NCBI RefSeq assembly: GCF_002262875.1
Contig: NZ_NKYE01000003.1
Coordinates: 62,001 to 126,000, forward strand
Origin: Amycolatopsis antarctica
GTDB taxonomy: Bacteria; Actinomycetota; Actinomycetes; Mycobacteriales; Pseudonocardiaceae
Reading direction: 5' to 3'
Length of the DNA: 64,000 nucleotides
Part shown: in pieces, positions 5,945 through 55,862 of the stretch
Position numbering within the stretch: the first letter of the stretch is position 1
Layout of the letters: the number at the start of each line of letters is the position of its first letter
Translations under genes and position numbers: made by a program
Notes under the pieces: generated by a model
Seen by the model: only the letters and a program-made list of their open reading frames with translations
Database searches by the model: none
Told to the model about the DNA's origin: nothing

Positions 5945-6232
5945 ATGACCACGCCCGCCGAGGCCGAAGAGGCGATCGGTTCCGAACTCGGTGCCGAGGA
6001 CAAGCCGTGGCAGACCGTCGTCTGGAACGACCCGGTAAACCTCATGTCATACGTGACATACGTCTTCCAGAAGCTGTTCGGTTACAGCCGCGATCACGCC
6101 ACGAAGTTGATGCTGGATGTCCATCACAAGGGCAAGGCGATCGTGACTTCGGGGACGAAGGACAAGGTGGAGGGTGATGTGGCGAAGCTGCATGCTGCCG
6201 GCTTGTGGGCGACGATGGAGCAGCCGGTATGA
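5945..6232 (+). CDS. clpS: ATP-dependent Clp protease adaptor ClpS
   Basis: A 95-residue N-degron adaptor that would deliver substrates to ClpC/ClpP. After a short flexible N-terminus come [11 protein letters not shown], the helix [21 protein letters not shown], and the [20 protein letters not shown] end. The Asn-Asp pair and the HHKG histidine correspond to pocket residues of known ClpS proteins. An in-frame ATG at 5936 is an alternative start. Its TGA overlaps the ATG of a second ClpS-like gene, and the 3' two-thirds is duplicated there almost base for base. Counterpart of Rv1331. Confidence 0.92.
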
Positions 6233-6458
6233 GCGTGTTGGCGGGGTGGAACGACCCGGTGCTGTATCGCTCGTTGTCATACGTGACATACGTCTTCGGG
6301 AAGTTGTTCGGTTACAGCCGCGATCACGCCACGAAGTTGATGCTGGATGTCCATCACAAGGGCAAGGCGATCGTGACTTCGGGGACGAAGGACAAGGTGG
6401 AGGGTGATGTGGCGAAGCTGCATGCTGCCGGCTTGTGGGCGACGATGGAGCAGCCGGC
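6045..6458 (+). repeat. Tandem duplication (about 184 bp, period 230 bp) of the clpS 3' part
   Basis: Bases 6045-6228 recur at 6275-6458. I can see only a handful of differences (for example CAG to GGG, CTG to TTG, GGT to GGC); the last 140 or so bases are otherwise identical. Such low divergence, including at third positions, points to a recent duplication or ongoing gene conversion. Each copy ends with the GGAG that serves as RBS for the next ATG. Confidence 0.9.
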
Positions 6459-6462
6459 ATGA
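6229..6462 (+). CDS. Second, N-terminally altered ClpS-like protein
   Basis: A 77-residue paralogue starting at the ATG that overlaps the clpS stop (ATGA). From SYVTYVF onward it is nearly identical to ClpS, but the leading segment is replaced by [16 protein letters not shown]. Relative to ClpS it lacks the 18-residue N-terminal arm, has two extra residues between the Asn-Asp pair and SYV, and has Leu where ClpS has Met in the pocket helix. In E. coli ClpS the arm is needed for substrate hand-off and Met40 gates specificity, so this copy could bind other N-degrons or act as an inhibitor. Its stop overlaps the next gene (ATGA), suggesting translational coupling. Confidence 0.75.
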
Positions 6463-10626: not shown

Positions 10627-10656
10627 CCCGGCCGGTGGCGGCGGCTCGAAGAGCCT

Positions 10657-10744
10657 GCCGGACCGCCCGACACGGGGTGCCGGACCGCCCGACACGGGGT
10701 GCCGGACCGCCCGACACGGGGTGCCGGACCGCCCGACACGGGGT
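10657..10744 (+). repeat. Four perfect tandem copies of a 22-bp repeat
   Basis: Units at 10657-10678, 10679-10700, 10701-10722 and 10723-10744 are identical, each containing CCGGACCGCCCGACACGGGG. They fill the gap after the racemase gene. A diverged array of the same repeat, inverted, occurs at 55717-55848. No cas genes and no unique spacers, so not a CRISPR. Confidence 0.95.
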
Positions 10745-10796
10745 GTGAGGGGCGGAATCAGGGAAATCACCCGAGGTGGGGTCGGGCGCGCGGACG

Positions 10797-27553: not shown

Positions 27554-29743
27554 TCACCCACCGTGTTCGGTCGCCAGAGCCTGCCTCGAGCGTCCGCGGA
27601 CGACGACGGTGCAGGCCAGCGCTGCCACGGCGAACAAGGCCGTGCCGCCGTGCACGAGCAGGCCGAGCCGGTCGACCTGCTGGCCCGCCGTGGCGGCCAG
27701 CAGTGACGGGGCGCAGGCCAGCACCGTCAGGGCCCACGTGCTCGCCCGCCCGCTGCTGCCGATCCGCACCGTGTGCAGCAGAACCACGCCGAGCAGCAGG
27801 TGGACCAGGCTCTGGATGGGGTCGAGCGAGATGCCCGGTACCGGCGAGGGGACGGTGCCGTCGCTGAACCCGCTCAGCGCGAAACCGAAGACGCCGAGCG
27901 TCGCGTAGCCGACACCGAGCACGGTGGCCGACCGTCCGAGCAGCGCCCCCAGTCCGGCGTCCACCGGCTCGGCCGACGGTGGCGCGGGCGGGCCGGCGTG
28001 GCGTTCGAACCAGCGGAACACCAGCGCCGCCGGTGCCGCCAGCAGCGCGAGCGCCAGCAGCGATCGCGGCTCGGCCAGCACGTCCAGTCCGCCGTCCAGC
28101 CTGCCCGGCAGGTAGACGACCGCGACCACCAGCAGCATCACCGCCAGGAAGGAGAGGTAGAGGCTCATTGGCGCGCGCAGGACCGTCGTGGTCACGCGCA
28201 GCGCGGTGGCGTTCGCGGCGAAACGGCGCAGCGGACCGGCGAGCAGCCCCAGCACACCGAGCTGGACGATGCCGAGCAGCAGGACGGGCAGCGGTGGGCC
28301 GGCCAGGGGTTCCGGGGCTCCCGGCAGTCCGAGCAGCACGGGCGGGCCGGAACCGGTGATCGCGATCGCGGCGAGACAGCCCATGGCCGCGACCGCGACG
28401 ATCGCCGTGGTCACCGGACGGGGCCTGCCGTAGGTGGCGTGGCAGAACGCCGCCTGCTGGGCGAGCAGGGCGAGCACCACGGCCGACACGTAGTGCGGCA
28501 GCGGCGTCGTCCACGCCCGCGCCAGGGTCTCGGCGGTGACCAGCACGCAGGCGAGCGCCGCCATTGTCAGCCGCGGCCGTATCCGGTGCGCGGCCAGCAG
28601 CGGCGGTGTGGCCACGATCGTCAGCAGGTAGACGCCCAGTAACCACAGCGGGTGCAGCGCGATCCGCAGCACGTGCGCGGCGGTGCCGCCGGGAATACGC
28701 AGCAGCTCCAGCGCCATCGGCACCGCGAAGGCCACCACGGCGAAGATCAGTACCGGGCGCAGCAGCCTGCCCGCCCGGTGCGCGAGGTACTGCCGGTACC
28801 CGCCGCCGACCGCGCGCACCGCGTGCCAGCCCGCCGCGTTCGCGTGCCCGCCCGCGAAGAAGAACACGAGGGAGAGCTGCGCGAGCCAGGTCAGCGGCCA
28901 GAGCCAGCCGGGACTCGCGCCCGCCCAGCGGGCCAGTGCGACGACCGACTCGCCGAGGACCATCGTGGCAATCGCGGCGACGCCGAGCAGCGCCCAGCGG
29001 CCCGCCGAGGAGGCCGGGGCACGGGGTCGCGCGCCGGGCGGCACGGTCGCGAAGGCCGCTGTCCGCCGGTTCCGCAACCAGCCGCGCAGCCGGACGACCA
29101 GCAGTACCCCGATCACGGCCAGCCCGGCCAGCGCGGGACCGATCGGCTCGCCGATGGGCGGGCCCCACCGCTGGTGCCAGGAATTGAGCAGCATGCCGAA
29201 CGAGTAGGCGGAGGCGACGACACGGCAGGTGCCCGCGGAGTCCATCGGATTGAGGTCGCAGGCGGCGTGCATGTCGGTGGAAAGCCGGTCGTCCAGGGCT
29301 TCCCGCGCGTCCGGGCCCAGCGGGCTGCCCTTCGCGGCGGCGTACCGGAGCAGGTCGTACCCGAGGTCGTGCGCCTTGCACGGGACCGAGTAGTCCCAGC
29401 GGGTGTTGTCATCACCCCACGGCGCGGAGCAACCGCCGTCGACGTGCACAGCGCGGACCGTTCCGTCCCGCGCCGGCATCCGGTCCGGGAGGACGCCGGT
29501 CACCTCGGTGAAGTCGGCGGGCAGCCGGTCGAGTGCGGTCGGCGCCGGGCCGGGGGCGAGCAGCGCGTCCACCGCCTGCCGGGCGGCCGCGAGATCGCCC
29601 CGTGGCGGCCCGGGATCCGGACGGGCCTGCGAGCGGGACGCGACGAAGCCGAACCCGACGACCACCAGCACCAGCACCAGTGCCCACGCCGAGGTCCGCA
29701 GCGGCCTGCGCACGGGCGGAGGTCCGTCGGCGGTCGCGGTCAT
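27554..29743 (-). CDS. Fusion: secreted-type phospholipase A2 domain plus multi-pass acyltransferase-like membrane domain
   Basis: A 729-residue protein with an unusual layout. After one N-terminal helix (about 18-36), residues 95-205 form a prokaryotic phospholipase A2 domain: DGGCSAPWG calcium loop, WDYSVPCKAHDLGYDLLRY with the H125-D126 pair, and cysteines at 105, 122 and in HAACDLNP and GTCRVV placed for two disulfides. Residues about 215-600 are ten or so hydrophobic helices resembling acyltransferase-3/OafA proteins (HPLWLLGVYLLTIVA). The last 110 look like a DUF4383 module. It may release a fatty acid outside and handle acyl groups in the membrane; that is inference. Confidence 0.82.
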   Translation of the reverse strand: MTATADGPPPVRRPLRTSAWALVLVLVVVGFGFVASRSQARPDPGPPRGDLAAARQAVDALLAPGPAPTALDRLPADFTEVTGVLPDRMPARDGTVRAVHVDGGCSAPWGDDNTRWDYSVPCKAHDLGYDLLRYAAAKGSPLGPDAREALDDRLSTDMHAACDLNPMDSAGTCRVVASAYSFGMLLNSWHQRWGPPIGEPIGPALAGLAVIGVLLVVRLRGWLRNRRTAAFATVPPGARPRAPASSAGRWALLGVAAIATMVLGESVVALARWAGASPGWLWPLTWLAQLSLVFFFAGGHANAAGWHAVRAVGGGYRQYLAHRAGRLLRPVLIFAVVAFAVPMALELLRIPGGTAAHVLRIALHPLWLLGVYLLTIVATPPLLAAHRIRPRLTMAALACVLVTAETLARAWTTPLPHYVSAVVLALLAQQAAFCHATYGRPRPVTTAIVAVAAMGCLAAIAITGSGPPVLLGLPGAPEPLAGPPLPVLLLGIVQLGVLGLLAGPLRRFAANATALRVTTTVLRAPMSLYLSFLAVMLLVVAVVYLPGRLDGGLDVLAEPRSLLALALLAAPAALVFRWFERHAGPPAPPSAEPVDAGLGALLGRSATVLGVGYATLGVFGFALSGFSDGTVPSPVPGISLDPIQSLVHLLLGVVLLHTVRIGSSGRASTWALTVLACAPSLLAATAGQQVDRLGLLVHGGTALFAVAALACTVVVRGRSRQALATEHGG

Positions 29744-29808
29744 GCGGTACAGGATTCCAGCGCCACTGTGGCGGGGGCACTCCGGATGTCCCCCATTTCT
29801 CCCTGAGG

Positions 29809-31272
29809 TCACCCCTCGGTGCGCTGTGCGGGTGGCACCGAGGCGTCCGGCGGCACGTCGGCGGCGAAGCGCACCAGGTTGCGTCCGCTCTCCTTGGCGT
29901 CGTAGACGGCACCGTCGGCGGCCTGCAGCATCGCTTCGAGCGAGTCGGCGTGCCGGGGATACACGGCGACACCGATCGAGGTGGTGCGCCCGGCGACCGT
30001 GGTCTGCCCGCCTCGCTTGTCCGTGGTGACGATCCGCAGATCCTCGATCGCGCTACGGACACGTTCCGCGGCGAGTTCGGCGCCTGCCCTGTCGATGTCG
30101 GGCAGCAGGATCAGGAATTCCTCGCCGCCGAAACGGCCGACCACATCGGCGGGACGGGTCACCTCGCCGAGGGTCTGCGCCACGGATCTGAGCACATCGT
30201 CGCCCGCTGGGTGTCCGAAAGTGTCGTTGATCCATTTGAAATGGTCGAGATCGATCATCAGCAATGCAAGTTCTTCGGACGAACGACTCGCTCTGTTCAG
30301 CGCGCGTTGAGCTGATTCGGTCCAGCCGCGCACGTTCAGCACGCCGGTTTTCGCGTCGGTGCGCGCCTCGGATTGCAGTTGGTTTATTTCGGCCAATCTG
30401 TTTCCGACCACGCTTACCAGAACCAGAATGATTATTGAAGGTGGCAGATTGACGAGTAGCACCGTCGCGATCGTGCCGAGTCCGATGGTAGATGCCTCGA
30501 GGAGATTGTCGGACTTGCTGCCGAGTACGTTGCGCAGGGTCGGTGACGCGGTGCCGCCGAGTGCCAGCAGGGAGCCGATGATCAGGGCCTGCACGAGCGC
30601 GTAGGCGAACCCGACGAGCATCAGCAGTGCGAACATCCGCAATCCGTTGGATTGGTCCAACCTGCTGATGTCGTCGGCCGCGAGTGCCTCGAAAAGCCGC
30701 TGTGCCACCAAAGCCGCCACCGCGACGGTGAACGTCGTGAAGACGAACTTGTGCGGCGGGCGGCGCGAGTTGACCCATCGCTGGCCGCGGACGATCGCGA
30801 TCAGCAGCAGCGTCAGGTGGATCGGCAGCAGCAGGGCCGCGGGGAAGGTCCAGATGCCGCTGAGGTCGATGTGCACCGACGCGATCCGGTTGCGGCGGCG
30901 TTCCTCCTGCCGCCGGGTGAGCTGGATGTGCAGCGTCGCGCAGCCGGCCAGCGCCGCCAGCCGGGTCCAGTCCGTAGCGGTCACCTCGCCGGCCGTGGCG
31001 ATTCCGAAGGACAGCAGGACGACCGCCGCGATCTCCCAGACCGCAAGGAAAACGATCATGCCCCGTGGTTTGGACCACAGGTCCCAGCGTCGCGGGGACG
31101 CCCGCGAGTACCGCCGCACGGCGGTGCTCCCACCGGCCTGTTCCTTGACGGTGCGTGTTCGCTCGGGCACTTTCTCGGCGTATTCGGAATCGTTATCGGA
31201 TTTTTCCGCGGCGGTGGGCTCGCCGTCCGTGTGCAGGACTTGCTGCCGGTGACGGCGCGGACCGGGTGTCAT
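29809..31272 (-). CDS. Membrane diguanylate cyclase (GGDEF domain)
   Basis: A 487-residue protein: a polar N-terminus of about 70 residues, six to seven transmembrane helices (about 72-290), then a GGDEF domain. DARTDAKTGVLNVRGW, LMIDLDHFKWINDTFGHPAGDDVL and the active-site RFGGEEFLILLPD are intact, so it should make c-di-GMP. An RxxD inhibitory site is not obvious before the GGEEF. ATG 31272 follows GGGAGGACTCGCACG. Part of the gene has lower GC than its neighbours (about 30230-30500). It is the first gene beside the MSDREA micro-ORF array. Confidence 0.92.
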   Translation of the reverse strand: MTPGPRRHRQQVLHTDGEPTAAEKSDNDSEYAEKVPERTRTVKEQAGGSTAVRRYSRASPRRWDLWSKPRGMIVFLAVWEIAAVVLLSFGIATAGEVTATDWTRLAALAGCATLHIQLTRRQEERRRNRIASVHIDLSGIWTFPAALLLPIHLTLLLIAIVRGQRWVNSRRPPHKFVFTTFTVAVAALVAQRLFEALAADDISRLDQSNGLRMFALLMLVGFAYALVQALIIGSLLALGGTASPTLRNVLGSKSDNLLEASTIGLGTIATVLLVNLPPSIIILVLVSVVGNRLAEINQLQSEARTDAKTGVLNVRGWTESAQRALNRASRSSEELALLMIDLDHFKWINDTFGHPAGDDVLRSVAQTLGEVTRPADVVGRFGGEEFLILLPDIDRAGAELAAERVRSAIEDLRIVTTDKRGGQTTVAGRTTSIGVAVYPRHADSLEAMLQAADGAVYDAKESGRNLVRFAADVPPDASVPPAQRTEG

Positions 31273-31598
31273 CGTGCGAGTCCTCCCGGTTCGGTAGTCA
31301 GCGGCGGATTCGGCGGGCAAGCGGTCTCGGCTGTGGGATCGGTGTTAATCACCGGTATCATCCCACCGTCGAGTTGTCGGTGTTCGCACTGCAATGATTG
31401 TCCCCGAATTGATCAGCGGTCCACTCGTGAAGTCTTCGCGATGAGGTGATTTTCCCATGCTCGGCGGAAGGCACCGATCGTGGCGGTTGGTCTCGGCGAT
31501 TCCGGGTACGAGACGGAGGGTGTCCGGCGGATGCCGGATCGCGTGGTGCGAGTCCGGGGACGGTCGTCGCTCGTTGTGCTTCTGGGAGGTGTCCCGCC

Positions 31599-31619
31599 AT
31601 GTCGGATCGTGAGGCCTGA
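31599..31619 (+). CDS. MSDREA micro-ORF 1
   Basis: ATG start, GGGAGG at 31584-31589. Uses GAT, CGT and GCC where most copies use GAC, CGC and GCG. Confidence 0.45.
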   Translation: MSDREA

Positions 31620-31670
31620 ACGTGCGGAGTGTTCCAGTTCTCGAACCCGCGGGGTACGGAGGTGAGCCGG

Positions 31671-31691
31671 ATGTCGGATCGTGAGGCCTGA
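31671..31691 (+). CDS. MSDREA micro-ORF 2
   Basis: ATG start, GGAGG at 31658-31662. Identical in codons to copy 1. Confidence 0.45.
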   Translation: MSDREA

Positions 31692-31749
31692 GCCGCGCGC
31701 ACGAATTTGCTGGTATGCAAGAAAAGGCGAGACGAAAGGACGGTGCCCG

Positions 31750-31770
31750 ATGTCGGACCGCGAAGCGTGA
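31750..31770 (+). CDS. MSDREA micro-ORF 3
   Basis: ATG start with a weaker AAAGGA at 31735-31740. Uses GAA for glutamate. Confidence 0.4.
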   Translation: MSDREA

Positions 31771-31824
31771 GTAACCGGGATTGACGTACGGCGGAGGAAA
31801 TCGCAGCAGGGAAGGAGAGGGCGC

Positions 31825-31845
31825 ATGTCGGACCGCGAGGCGTGA
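31825..31845 (+). CDS. MSDREA micro-ORF 4
   Basis: ATG start, AAGGAG at 31812-31817. Consensus codons throughout. Confidence 0.45.
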   Translation: MSDREA

Positions 31846-31895
31846 ACATCCGTTCGAATGGCAGTCGAGGATCGGCGAGATCGGAGGTGAGCAGG

Positions 31896-31916
31896 GTGTC
31901 GGACCGCGAGGCGTGA
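31896..31916 (+). CDS. MSDREA micro-ORF 5 (GTG start)
   Basis: GTG replaces ATG, a change that keeps initiation possible. GGAGG at 31883-31887. Confidence 0.45.
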   Translation: MSDREA

Positions 31917-31972
31917 GCACGGAACCGGGAAAAGCGGGGCAGCACGGGAAACGAAGTGGAGGTGGCCACGAG

Positions 31973-31993
31973 ATGTCGGACCGCGAGGCATGA
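31973..31993 (+). CDS. MSDREA micro-ORF 6
   Basis: ATG start, GGAGG at 31958-31962. Alanine is GCA, so the stop overlaps another ATG (GCATGA). Confidence 0.45.
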   Translation: MSDREA

Positions 31994-32039
31994 GCCGGGC
32001 AGCGACGGAAATCGACGAGCAGCGAGGAGGTGGACCGCG

Positions 32040-32060
32040 ATGTCGGACCGGGAAGCGTGA
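32040..32060 (+). CDS. MSDREA micro-ORF 7
   Basis: ATG start, AGGAGG at 32025-32030. Uses CGG and GAA. Confidence 0.45.
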   Translation: MSDREA

Positions 32061-32116
32061 ATTCCGAAGTCATTGAAAGTTCTAACGACCAGTGGGCGAG
32101 GCGGAGGTGACCCGAG

Positions 32117-32137
32117 ATGTCGGACCGTGAGGCGTGA
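32117..32137 (+). CDS. MSDREA micro-ORF 8
   Basis: ATG start, GGAGG at 32103-32107. Uses CGT. The preceding linker is AT-rich for this genome. Confidence 0.45.
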   Translation: MSDREA

Positions 32138-32191
32138 AATACCGGACAGCGACGGCAGGCCGTGAACGAAGAAGGACCGGAGGTGAGAAAC

Positions 32192-32212
32192 GTGTCGGAC
32201 CGCGAGGCGTGA
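32192..32212 (+). CDS. MSDREA micro-ORF 9 (GTG start)
   Basis: GTG start, GGAGG at 32179-32183. Otherwise consensus codons. Confidence 0.45.
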   Translation: MSDREA

Positions 32213-32285
32213 GATCCCGGATCGGGAATGGACGGCAGTACCGAGATGACGGCGAAGGCCTGGACACACGGAGAGGTGGACCGCG

Positions 32286-32306
32286 ATGTCGGACCGCGAG
32301 GCGTGA
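32286..32306 (+). CDS. MSDREA micro-ORF 10
   Basis: ATG start, GAGAGG at 32271-32276. Consensus codons. Confidence 0.45.
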   Translation: MSDREA

Positions 32307-32461
32307 ACGGATACCCCATCGACCGCACGAGCGGCACGTGCGCCAGCACGAGCGACGGCACGAGCGAACGACCGGGACGCGAAGGACGGAACGTGCAGGA
32401 CGCCGAAGACGGGCGGAGACCCGGATTCCGGCGAGGACGAGGACGAGGTGGAGGTTCCGCG

Positions 32462-32482
32462 ATGTCGGACCGTGAGGCGTGA
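32462..32482 (+). CDS. MSDREA micro-ORF 11
   Basis: ATG start, GGAGG at 32450-32454. Uses CGT. It follows the longest gap (176 bp), where one or two copies may have been lost. Confidence 0.45.
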   Translation: MSDREA

Positions 32483-32570
32483 ACGAGGGCAGGACCGGCG
32501 GCAGCGGTCCGCACGACGGTGCCGGGGACGTCCCGGCCGCCAGGCGCCGGCGATCCGGCGATGTGCCGGC

Positions 32571-32591
32571 GTGTCCGACCGTGCGGCATGA
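32571..32591 (+). CDS. Degenerate micro-ORF 12 (MSDRAA)
   Basis: GTG start, TCC for serine and GCG in place of the glutamate codon; no Shine-Dalgarno is visible. Probably a decaying copy at the array edge. Confidence 0.3.
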   Translation: MSDRAA

Positions 32592-32614: not shown

Positions 32615-33838
32615 TCAGCCGGCCTCGTCGACCCGGGGCGCCTGCTGATCCTTGTGTACCCGGGACCAGGACAGCGCCACCGGCGCCGCGAGTACCACTC
32701 CCAGAACCCCGGCCAGCGCGATCGTGTTCGGGACCGAACCGATCAACTCGGCCACCGCGCCACCGAGCGCGACCCCCACTCCCTGCGCGACGCGCAGCCC
32801 GGTCCGGTACAGGCCCCCGGCAGCCCCGCGCATCTCGTTCGGCACCCAGGTGTTGAACGTGGCGCCGACGGTGATGATGTAGGCACCCGCCGCGCCGGCG
32901 AGTGCGAGCAGTGCCAGCGCCAGCCCGAGGTTCGGCTGCACGGCGAAGCCGATCAGCACCCCGCAGGACGCGACCGCCAGTACCCCCATCAGTCGCAGCC
33001 GTGATTGCGCCGACGCGTACTTCGAGAGCAGGTACGCGCCCAGCACGAATCCCAGCGGGTCCGCCGCGAGCAGCCAGCCGACCGCCTCCTGCGGGGCACC
33101 GATCTGGTCCGCCAGTGGCGCCGCGAGACCCTCCGGGACGACGGCGAGACCGACCAGCCAGGACAGCGCCAGCAGCAGCCGGAGCCTCCGCTGCCCGAAG
33201 ACCCAGCGGGCCCCGCCGAACCAGCTGTCCGACTTCTTGCCGGCCGCCGGACGGGCCCGCACCCAGAGCCGGACCACCAGCGCGCTGATCGCGAACGTGA
33301 CGGCGTTGCACGCCAGCGCCCAGGACGTGCCGACCAGCGTCACCAGCAGCCCGCCGCCCGCCAGGCCGAGCAACATCACCGTGTTCGTGGTGATGCCGCG
33401 CAGGTCCTGGCTGCGCAGGTACAGATCGTCGTCGGTGAACACCTCGCGGGTGACGGCGTTCTGCGCGGCATTGGCCGGGGCCACCACGAGCTGCACGGCG
33501 ACGACCAGCGCGCAGAGGGCGACCAGCGGCATGCCGGGCACCGCCATCAGTGCGACCAGCGCCGCCTGGATCAGCGCGCACGTGGTCAGCAGCGCACGTC
33601 GCGGGTAGCGGTCGGCGAGCTGGGAGAGGCCGAGCCCGCCGATCAGCGCGGGCAGGAAGGTCAGCGCGTAGACGCCCGCCGCCCACAGTGCCGAACCGGT
33701 GCGCTGGTAGACCATGATCGCCAGCGCGACCTTGGCGAGCTGATCGCCCGCCGCTGACTGTGCCTCGGCGAACCACAGCGCCCTGAACTCGACGTTCTGG
33801 AGTACCACTCCCATGCGGGGTGCCGTGCTGGTGCTCAC
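32615..33838 (-). CDS. MFS transporter (enterobactin-exporter-like / DHA3 type)
   Basis: A 407-residue permease with about 12 hydrophobic helices. The N-terminal half has FRALWFAEAQSAAGDQLAKVALAIMVYQRTGS and the loop signature GGLGLSQLADRYPRR of DHA3-type exporters. It probably exports a drug, siderophore or metabolite. GTG 33838 is taken as start; an internal ATG at 33814 would remove eight residues. It reads toward the MSDREA array but stops 23 bp before it. Confidence 0.85.
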   Translation of the reverse strand: MSTSTAPRMGVVLQNVEFRALWFAEAQSAAGDQLAKVALAIMVYQRTGSALWAAGVYALTFLPALIGGLGLSQLADRYPRRALLTTCALIQAALVALMAVPGMPLVALCALVVAVQLVVAPANAAQNAVTREVFTDDDLYLRSQDLRGITTNTVMLLGLAGGGLLVTLVGTSWALACNAVTFAISALVVRLWVRARPAAGKKSDSWFGGARWVFGQRRLRLLLALSWLVGLAVVPEGLAAPLADQIGAPQEAVGWLLAADPLGFVLGAYLLSKYASAQSRLRLMGVLAVASCGVLIGFAVQPNLGLALALLALAGAAGAYIITVGATFNTWVPNEMRGAAGGLYRTGLRVAQGVGVALGGAVAELIGSVPNTIALAGVLGVVLAAPVALSWSRVHKDQQAPRVDEAG

Positions 33839-55716: not shown

Positions 55717-55848
55717 GCCGTGTCGCGCGTTCTGGCATGCCGTGTCGGGCGCTCTGGCATGCCGTGTCGCGCTTTCTGACCCCCGTGTCGCGCGCCCCGA
55801 CCCCCCGTGTCGGGCGCTCTGGCATGCCGTGTCGCGCGTTCCGGCATC
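55717..55848 (-). repeat. Six diverged copies of the 22-bp repeat
   Basis: CCGTGTCGSGCG cores recur at 55718, 55740, 55762, 55783, 55805 and 55827, spaced 21-22 bp, several followed by TCTGGCATG. On the minus strand most units open ATGCCAGAGCGC or close variants. They match the array at 10657-10744 in inverse orientation. They fill the gap after meaB. Confidence 0.9.
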
Positions 55849-55862
55849 GCCGTGCCGGACGG

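Follow-up and report, generated by a model that had tools for sequence, protein, structure and literature searches.

An array of identical hexapeptide micro-genes beside a membrane diguanylate cyclase gene suggests a peptide signalling system in actinobacteria

Introduction

Signals of five to seven residues are known from Arbitrium AimP, the Phr peptides and the PatS pentapeptide; they are group-specific and often carry a conserved arginine. In insects, a single transcript of the tarsal-less/polished rice gene holds several tiny open reading frames (ORFs) that encode near-identical short peptides. SIP of Streptococcus, the leaderless communication peptide (LCP) that acts with RopB in the Firmicutes, is described as an eight-residue signal that comes without a leader from a 24-bp ORF (PMC10518010). 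The microcin C gene mccA is described as a seven-codon minigene that is clustered with the MccC pump and is translated reiteratively in vitro (PMC6495379). In this report, we analyse an array of eleven micro-ORFs, each encoding the hexapeptide MSDREA, in a stretch of 64,000 nucleotides from Amycolatopsis antarctica (NCBI RefSeq assembly GCF_002262875.1, contig NZ_NKYE01000003.1, positions 62,001 to 126,000 of the forward strand). This whole stretch is termed the window, and all coordinates refer to it. The array adjoins the gene for a membrane-bound diguanylate cyclase, an enzyme that makes cyclic di-GMP (c-di-GMP).

According to a survey of Streptomyces, c-di-GMP controls development through BldD, and the signals for the N-terminal domains of six GGDEF proteins are unknown (PMC6205966). 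Such arrays were not described in the titles or abstract openings among the matches listed by our searches of the PMC literature, a search that did not cover bioRxiv preprints, and a PMC search on “MSDREA” returned nothing relevant. We know of no bacterial precedent for raising the dose of a peptide by repeating a whole micro-gene. The arrays detailed below, together with their membrane cyclase and often a transporter, suggest an undescribed peptide signalling system.

Results

Eleven MSDREA micro-genes in the window

An exact ORF scan of the window found eleven micro-ORFs of 21 bp that read MSDREA-stop, all on the + strand between 31599 and 32482, just as an earlier note, made from the letters of the window, had described. 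Nine of them start with ATG and two with GTG. The ribosome-binding sites claimed in that note are also present: in ten units a Shine-Dalgarno sequence (GGAGG, GAGGTG or AAGGAG) ends 6-11 bases 5' of the start, and in the unit at 31750 an AAAGGA ends 9 bases 5' of it. The units and the associated elements are as follows.

31599..31619, + strand: micro-ORF 1, MSDREA, GGAGG 9 nt upstream
31671..31691, + strand: micro-ORF 2, MSDREA, GGAGG 8 nt upstream
31750..31770, + strand: micro-ORF 3, MSDREA, AAAGGA 9 nt upstream
31825..31845, + strand: micro-ORF 4, MSDREA, AAGGAG 7 nt upstream
31896..31916, + strand: micro-ORF 5, MSDREA, GTG start, GGAGG 8 nt upstream
31973..31993, + strand: micro-ORF 6, MSDREA, GGAGG 10 nt upstream
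32040..32060, + strand: micro-ORF 7, MSDREA, GGAGG 9 nt upstream
32117..32137, + strand: micro-ORF 8, MSDREA, GGAGG 9 nt upstream
32192..32212, + strand: micro-ORF 9, MSDREA, GTG start, GGAGG 8 nt upstream
32286..32306, + strand: micro-ORF 10, MSDREA, GAGGTG 7 nt upstream
32462..32482, + strand: micro-ORF 11, MSDREA, GGAGG 7 nt upstream
32571..32591, + strand: decayed or chance copy, GTG start, MSDRAA-stop, without a Shine-Dalgarno sequence
31344..31365, + strand: intergenic element GTTAATCACCGGTATCATCCCA, conserved in part in an alignment of leader regions

Successive units are spaced by 72, 79, 75, 71, 77, 67, 77, 75, 94 and 176 bp. The range of 67-94 bp given in the earlier note holds for the first nine gaps but omits the last, and its interval of 31531-32591 does enclose the eleven units but is bounded by look-alikes, that at 31531 being without a stop codon and that at 32571 without a Shine-Dalgarno sequence. 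The copies occupy all three frames of the + strand, as had been noted. A long overlapping protein was considered for the window and rejected: divided by three, the spacings leave remainders of 0, 1 and 2 in three, three and four cases. In the leader-region alignment the consensus reads GTAATC..CGGTaCC..GGTATCATCCCA, and the GTTAATCACCGGTATCATCCCA element is a possible promoter or operator of the array, perhaps also of the divergent GGDEF gene.

The strict MSDREA pattern matched the 6.34-Mb assembly eleven times in the forward direction and never in reverse, and a reversed-pattern control matched nowhere; because these eleven forward matches are the only ones, no MSDREA copy lies outside the window array. 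A unit model termed R1, which uses sequence only and was built from relatives, was tested on this genome and recovered ten of the eleven units at E<=0.024 and the eleventh at 0.52, with the best match outside the array at 0.165. R1 is too weak to identify single units elsewhere and was therefore kept off other genomes. An Rfam scan of the window at gathering thresholds found three tRNAs only, with no match in the array, and the array is absent from the Tandem Repeats Finder list for the window. Other tandem repeats of the window are a perfect 22-bp unit at 10656-10745 (x4.1), a 22-bp unit at 55717-55854 (x6.3) and a 230-bp unit at 6045-6462 (x1.8).

The array is a companion of a family of membrane cyclases

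Strict MSDREA matches occurred in five of 80 genomes of the genus and three of 297 sampled genomes of the family, the A. antarctica genome being counted. Two of the matching loci (L009 and L011) lie between the same two genes as the window array, with a membrane GGDEF gene diverging on one side and a gene of the major facilitator superfamily (MFS) converging on the other, and contain additional copies that differ at residue 2; another (L020) is a single copy, with a dehydrogenase gene where the MFS gene would be. A wider search with a GGDEF alignment as the query gave 78 loci. Sixty-seven of these match over the membrane domain of the cyclase and form our orthologous set, which contains near-identical species; they come from Amycolatopsis, Prauserella, Saccharomonospora, Haloechinothrix, Qaidamihabitans, metagenome-assembled genomes (MAGs) of Actinophytocola, and one Actinomycetes MAG. 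The other eleven (L088-L098), which have a distant GGDEF match only, served as a negative control.

With the membrane domain alone as the query, a larger GGDEF family appeared, with up to several paralogues per genome and relatives in at least 74 of 397 genomes of the order (E 1e-10) and 75 of 394 of the class (E 1e-15). The domain may be confined to the class, because A. antarctica was the only match among 296 genomes of a phylum sample (E 1e-20), a sample without most of the class members that have the domain. The GGDEF protein had no match in a plasmid collection at E 1e-40, and six stretches of viral contigs that fit a pattern encode no relative. From the lower-scoring places among the matches listed we picked 40 paralogous loci, and likewise 40 class-wide loci from the class search; both sets are picked loci, not a census, and were chosen before their upstream DNA was seen. 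The stretches fetched for them take in roughly 2-3 kb of upstream DNA and stop within the GGDEF gene.

Micro-ORFs on the divergent strand lie upstream of the membrane GGDEF gene in 66 of the 67 orthologous loci, the exception being L083. All of 30 further orthologous loci (L099-L128) have them as well; the species of these overlap with those of the 67, so they stand outside the counts. Shine-Dalgarno-preceded micro-ORFs occupy the divergent strand of 34 of the 40 paralogous and 26 of the 40 class-wide loci, and the other strand of 3 and 2. We defined a multi-copy array as two or more Shine-Dalgarno-preceded ORFs of 5-8 residues within 1.1 kb, with at least three of the last four residues agreeing. 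Arrays of this kind were found on the divergent strand in 58/67 orthologous, 17/40 paralogous and 15/40 class-wide loci, and on the other strand in 0/67, 0/40 and 0/40 (0/147 in total); dinucleotide shuffles of the three sets gave 0/1340, 0/800 and 0/800 (0/2940 in total). A chance origin of the array is excluded, because neither the strand control nor the shuffles yielded one. The eleven loci of other GGDEF genes hold no array and at most two unrelated micro-ORFs each, and as far as tested the array is specific to this GGDEF family. That it is the conserved companion of such a family, often with an MFS gene and with a peptide that differs between lineages, goes beyond what had been read from the window.

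Orthologous loci encode MRDREA, MMDREY/MLDREY, MSDRAW, MSSRDF, MSSRDW, MSNRDF, MSGRDF, MSDRDF, MRNRDL, MSNRDG and other peptides, near-uniform at each locus and different between loci, with residue 2 the most variable within a locus. The orthologous set and the window hold 225 units of five or six residues of the form M-x(1-3)-R-[DEAN]-x, with GTG (130), ATG (74) or TTG (21) starts and TGA (223) or TAG (2) stops; the fixed arginine of this count follows from the construction of the search pattern, and seven-residue and nested ORFs were dropped. A scan that required only a Shine-Dalgarno sequence and the length recovers the same peptides. The final residue of the 214 six-codon orthologous units is F, A, W, L, G, Y or C. 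Seven loci (L042, L044, L046, L047, L050, L051, L062) have a second Shine-Dalgarno-preceded ORF of seven codons (MDDRVEP, MSDSVEP and the like) that starts 10 nt 5' of the last MSSRDF micro-ORF; it may be a chance overlap or reflect translational coupling.

The paralogous and class-wide arrays are more varied. They include MRSRDW/MSRDW in 18 copies (L129) and, in the largest array, 23 copies (L132); MRNRAW x8 (L148); MNNHGW x5 with weak Shine-Dalgarno sequences (L159); MNNWSW-type x5 (L160); MLDNWRWP x2 (L158); MRDTTWS/R x13 (L177); MRDNNWN x8 (L178); and MRGNSWD x6 (L190). Five genomes (G025, G239, G409, G439, G764) have two or more multi-copy arrays, with a different peptide in each. On the array strand of L180, between two tandem cyclase genes, a 10-codon ORF for MWVRAGWRCE occurs three times without a clear Shine-Dalgarno sequence. 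Four loci of family f31, from several genera (L199, L200, L205, L210), have a single micro-ORF, MLRGVTWI/T or MRGVSWI, upstream of the cyclase, and neither an MFS gene nor an array was detected at the f31 loci with this micro-ORF; it is possibly a single-copy form of the system.

Selection acts on the encoded peptide

Among the 55 pairs of window units, all 96 of 96 codon differences are synonymous: codon positions 1 and 2 show 0/275 differences each and position 3 shows 96/275, the pairwise counts not being independent of each other. The statement that the ORFs vary only at third codon bases and between ATG and GTG is therefore accurate, every change being synonymous. The flanks of the units (30 bases per unit) differ at 73% of positions, which is near to unrelated sequence. 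In the orthologous arrays the synonymous share is 450/594 with the window and 354/498 without it, where random single changes would give 0.218, and in 26 other arrays it is 477/548; outside the window this excess is partly built in, as the units were collected by peptide patterns. Unit pairs with flanks less than half different were excluded from the synonymous count as recent duplicates. In L132, L190 and L191 serine codons are exchanged between TCN and AGC, which requires two changes. Two results support the earlier inference of selection for hexapeptide translation: the codon positions, at which equal variation would have spoken for a mere DNA repeat, and the proposed search of related genomes for a synonymous excess, in which the differences at orthologous and other loci were mostly synonymous.

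A bias at the nucleotide level was also observed in the 214 six-codon units, here with the window included: codon 3 is RRY in 210/214 and the arginine codon is CGY (CGT or CGC) in 212/214. It may represent a strong codon preference or a nucleotide-level constraint atop coding. This bias would be in keeping with a non-coding DNA repeat or an array of protein-binding sites, as would a spacing of ~73 bp, about seven helical turns. Such an element is contradicted by the codon data, including the serine exchanges. It also fits poorly with differences that are mainly synonymous, start and stop codons that are preserved and Shine-Dalgarno sequences that are present, all of these with quite different peptides; we regard it as extremely unlikely.

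The transporter and other neighbours

Two genes flank the cyclase and array:

32615..33838, - strand: MFS transporter of exporter type, convergent with the array (PF07690, PF05977; open frame to 34129, start inferred)
27554-29812, - strand: phospholipase A2-like membrane protein, open frame (Pfam score just below cut-off)

The best NCBIfam matches of the window MFS protein are TIGR00900 and EntS, all of them under the cut-offs, and a sequence search of solved structures gave none at E 0.001. A similar protein (62-74% identical) is encoded in 62 of 67 orthologous loci, and a more distant one (37-51%) in 26/40 paralogous and 13/40 class-wide stretches, for a total of 101/147 loci examined. Here a gene counts as found when tblastn matched it in the fetched stretch, mostly directly past the array; contig ends shortened some loci, among them L188, L189, L192 and L193, and lowered these counts. 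Array and MFS gene go together in the orthologous set (arrays in 58/62 loci with MFS and 0/5 without, p 1e-5) and in the class-wide set (12/13 and 3/27, p 1e-6), the loci being treated as independent in both tests.

The presence of an MFS gene near the array in 101/147 loci bears on whether the peptide leaves the cell. It could instead act only inside, binding or inhibiting either the membrane cyclase or the MFS protein, with no intercellular signalling. A secretion leader would not fit into peptides of this length, seven of the 14 paralogous loci without a detected MFS gene still have multi-copy arrays, and the membrane domain also has cytoplasmic faces. The frequency of the transporter gene argues the other way, as do the lineage-specific, uniform codes, which are typical of extracellular signals, and we consider a purely intracellular role unlikely.

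The orientation of the MFS gene bears on another alternative. In 100 of 101 loci it lies on the GGDEF strand, convergent with the array; the exception is L148, where MFS is inverted and lies downstream in sense. The array might work as a cis-acting RNA or ribosome-loading element. In that case, expression of the MFS or GGDEF gene would be controlled by ribosomes that stall on the micro-ORFs or, by translating them, hold the transcript open. Minigenes are described that can affect the gene beside them in cis (PMC8708949), and the regular spacing (median 73 nt, 259/292 within 60-82) would suit one ribosome per unit. Such control is hard to reconcile with a convergent MFS gene and with a peptide that is near-constant in each array and different between arrays; further, because stop codons vary among TGA, TAG and TAA both between and within arrays, a fixed termination context is not conserved. 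We judge this explanation very improbable. Of the three roles suggested in the earlier note, a leader RNA is disfavoured by the convergent gene, and a pure titration or ribosome-loading array by peptides that are near-uniform in an array yet differ between arrays even within one genome. The remaining role, multi-copy production of a short peptide, is the one favoured.

A Pfam scan of six window neighbours identified the MFS protein, a short-chain dehydrogenase, the phospholipase A2-like protein (below cut-off) and LytR-CpsA-Psr, AMP-binding and kynureninase-like proteins; no peptide-modifying enzyme, including the MccB type (ThiF-like), was among these six. This result weighs against a multi-copy peptide antibiotic or ribosomally synthesized and post-translationally modified peptide (RiPP), exported by the MFS protein in the manner of microcin C and with the cyclase as regulator. 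Peptide length and the adjoining exporter-type gene fit such a product, and the mccA peptide, described with its MccC pump and reiterative translation in vitro, is the seven-residue MRTGNAN (PMC6495379). The final residues of the array peptides are mostly F, A, W or others, with Asn only in L178 (MRDNNWN) and L188 (MRDSTWN). We hold a product of this kind to be a distinctly poor prospect.

The phospholipase A2-like frame and the end of the GGDEF gene share four bases; the two genes probably form an operon, and the protein is a possible output of the module. This gene is present in 54/67 and the short-chain dehydrogenase gene in 64/67 orthologous loci; in the shorter stretches of the other 80 loci, which cover 2-3 kb upstream and end inside the GGDEF gene, they were found in 1 and 6.

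The cyclase and a candidate receptor domain

29809..31272, - strand: membrane diguanylate cyclase, helical membrane domain plus GGDEF domain (PF00990, E 9.1e-44; TIGR00254)

These matches bear out the identification of the neighbouring gene as a c-di-GMP synthase. The active site, GGEEF, is intact and is among the invariant columns of four orthologues. The membrane domain (residues about 63-300, 31086-30373) matches no Pfam family. A confident AlphaFold2 model of it has six long helices, with a predicted local distance difference test score (pLDDT) of 92.9 and a predicted template-modelling score (pTM) of 0.90. The first matches in a search of the Protein Data Bank (PDB) with this model include S-components of energy-coupling factor (ECF) transporters (ThiT, RibU and others; TM 0.42-0.58 by target), among them ThiT 4muu (prob 0.98, TM 0.58 by target); none of the matches reached E 0.001, the best having E 0.32, and unrelated proteins were intermixed. 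ECF S-components are vitamin-binding membrane proteins, and the model hints that the membrane domain may be S-component-like.

When the peptide code (residues 3, 5 and 6) was followed over a tree of 63 loci, it changed on 17 branches; these account for 29.3% of the substitutions in the membrane domain, 25.3% of those in the GGDEF domain and 23.2% of those in the MFS protein. Permutation among branches of similar length gave p 0.0022 for the excess of the membrane domain over MFS, p 0.021 for that over the GGDEF domain, and p 0.39 for GGDEF domain over MFS. Because of this excess, the data favour, in an exploratory way, the membrane domain over the MFS protein as the part that would have to match the peptide; no single column survives correction for 417 tests, and the 63 tips include near-identical species.

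Discussion

In this report, we found that the observation of the earlier note is real and is confirmed, and that the window array belongs to a recurrent arrangement. We consider it rather probable that the array is a multi-copy gene for a ready-made peptide that the MFS protein exports and the membrane cyclase senses. The product in the window would be one short peptide, formyl-Met-Ser-Asp-Arg-Glu-Ala. A single transcript that begins in the GTTAATCACCGGTATCATCCCA region, between array and GGDEF gene, would carry the eleven independent ribosome-binding sites, each of which would make the same hexapeptide, at a high level and with neither leader nor processing. The neighbouring MFS would export it; its binding to the membrane domain of the cyclase would then raise or lower the output of c-di-GMP. 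Each module would thus have its own peptide signal, exporter and receptor. Reiterative translation in vitro, as described for the short ORF of the microcin C precursor, offers a rationale for ORFs that keep to six or seven codons and grow in number rather than in length. To the broader proposal of a class-wide actinobacterial signalling system, with arrays of 2-23 micro-genes, MFS export, an S-component-like receptor cyclase and a code for each lineage and module, we give an even chance.

Several points weigh against this export-and-sensing model, in addition to the built-in part of the synonymous excess and the limits given with the structural matches and the substitution test. In L146, L160 and L166 the synonymous differences are 0/5, 0/8 and 0/5, the non-synonymous sites being residues 2, 3, 5 or 6 or an N-terminal extension. 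A consensus scan found neither a sigma-70 promoter nor a terminator. The paralogue set shows no association between array and MFS (10/26 with and 7/14 without, p 0.5, loci treated as independent), and in L134 and L136 a distance of over 1.5 kb separates the MFS gene from the GGDEF match. Many of the class-wide GGDEF relatives, chiefly in family f31, lack an MFS gene and have at most a single micro-ORF. Finally, in genus g45 (L129, L131, L132) all 50 MSRDW/MRSRDW spacings are multiples of three, one antisense frame is stop-free across the whole array, and the open frames of the GGDEF matches are longer (1093, 858 and 1087 aa). Because the spacings are in phase, the antisense frame is open and the cyclase frame is longer, an N-terminal extension of the g45 cyclase may be encoded on the strand opposite the array. 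These in-phase arrays are unexplained by the model that we favour.

If the model of an exported and sensed peptide is true, it describes a c-di-GMP switch gated by linear peptides as ligands, together with gene amplification in which whole ORFs, rather than a precursor protein, are repeated. The arrays suggest that a bacterium can increase its dose of a peptide through repetition of entire micro-genes, each preceded by a ribosome-binding site of its own; an annotation that sets a lower limit on ORF length would overlook them. They also put a specific candidate ligand beside each cyclase, its sequence readable in the adjoining DNA, and the question of the signal is therefore directly testable with synthetic hexapeptides. 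Amycolatopsis is a genus of mycelial actinomycetes that includes antibiotic producers. Because c-di-GMP governs development in Streptomyces, the peptides may offer a way to influence development and antibiotic production in such organisms.

How does the system compare with those already described? The tarsal-less/polished rice gene is eukaryotic, encodes longer peptides and has no transporter or cyclase partner. AimP, Phr and PatS differ in having longer precursors, single genes and different receptors. Attenuator or leader peptides precede a regulated gene on the same transcript, an arrangement that the arrays lack; only L148 has MFS downstream in sense. Microcin C is alike in that a minigene and an exporter-type gene share a cluster, and the window MFS gene does adjoin the array, its kinship with MccC and its export function being putative. 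The two differ in that the mccA product is described as being adenylated at its C-terminus by MccB (PMC6495379), an enzyme of which there is no sign among the six window neighbours scanned. The microcin C precursor ends in Asn, whereas the array peptides mostly do not, and the ORF is multiplied here. The GGDEF proteins of Streptomyces are likewise diguanylate cyclases, and some sit in the membrane; the signals that reach their N-terminal input domains are unknown, and the excerpted text of the survey mentions no peptide partner for them (PMC6205966). The membrane domain here falls outside Pfam.

The closest likeness in design is to the LCPs, in which, as described for SIP, a peptide of mature type comes directly and without a leader from an ultrasmall ORF next to a receptor gene, and codes differ by species (PMC10518010). 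The ORFs of that class have about 5-8 residues and no secretion signal. Those of the window have six, each with its own Shine-Dalgarno sequence, start and stop, and the mature form is inferred. An LCP acts between cells after its secretion and re-import, and the array peptides are candidates for an intercellular role. The LCP gene adjoins a cytosolic receptor of the RopB/RRNPPA type, whereas the array adjoins a membrane GGDEF protein, and none of the other six neighbours scanned is of that type. Where the SIP system, as described, pairs a single ORF with a cytosolic receptor of the RRNPPA family, the actinobacterial arrays join up to 23 ORFs to a membrane diguanylate cyclase and often an MFS transporter.

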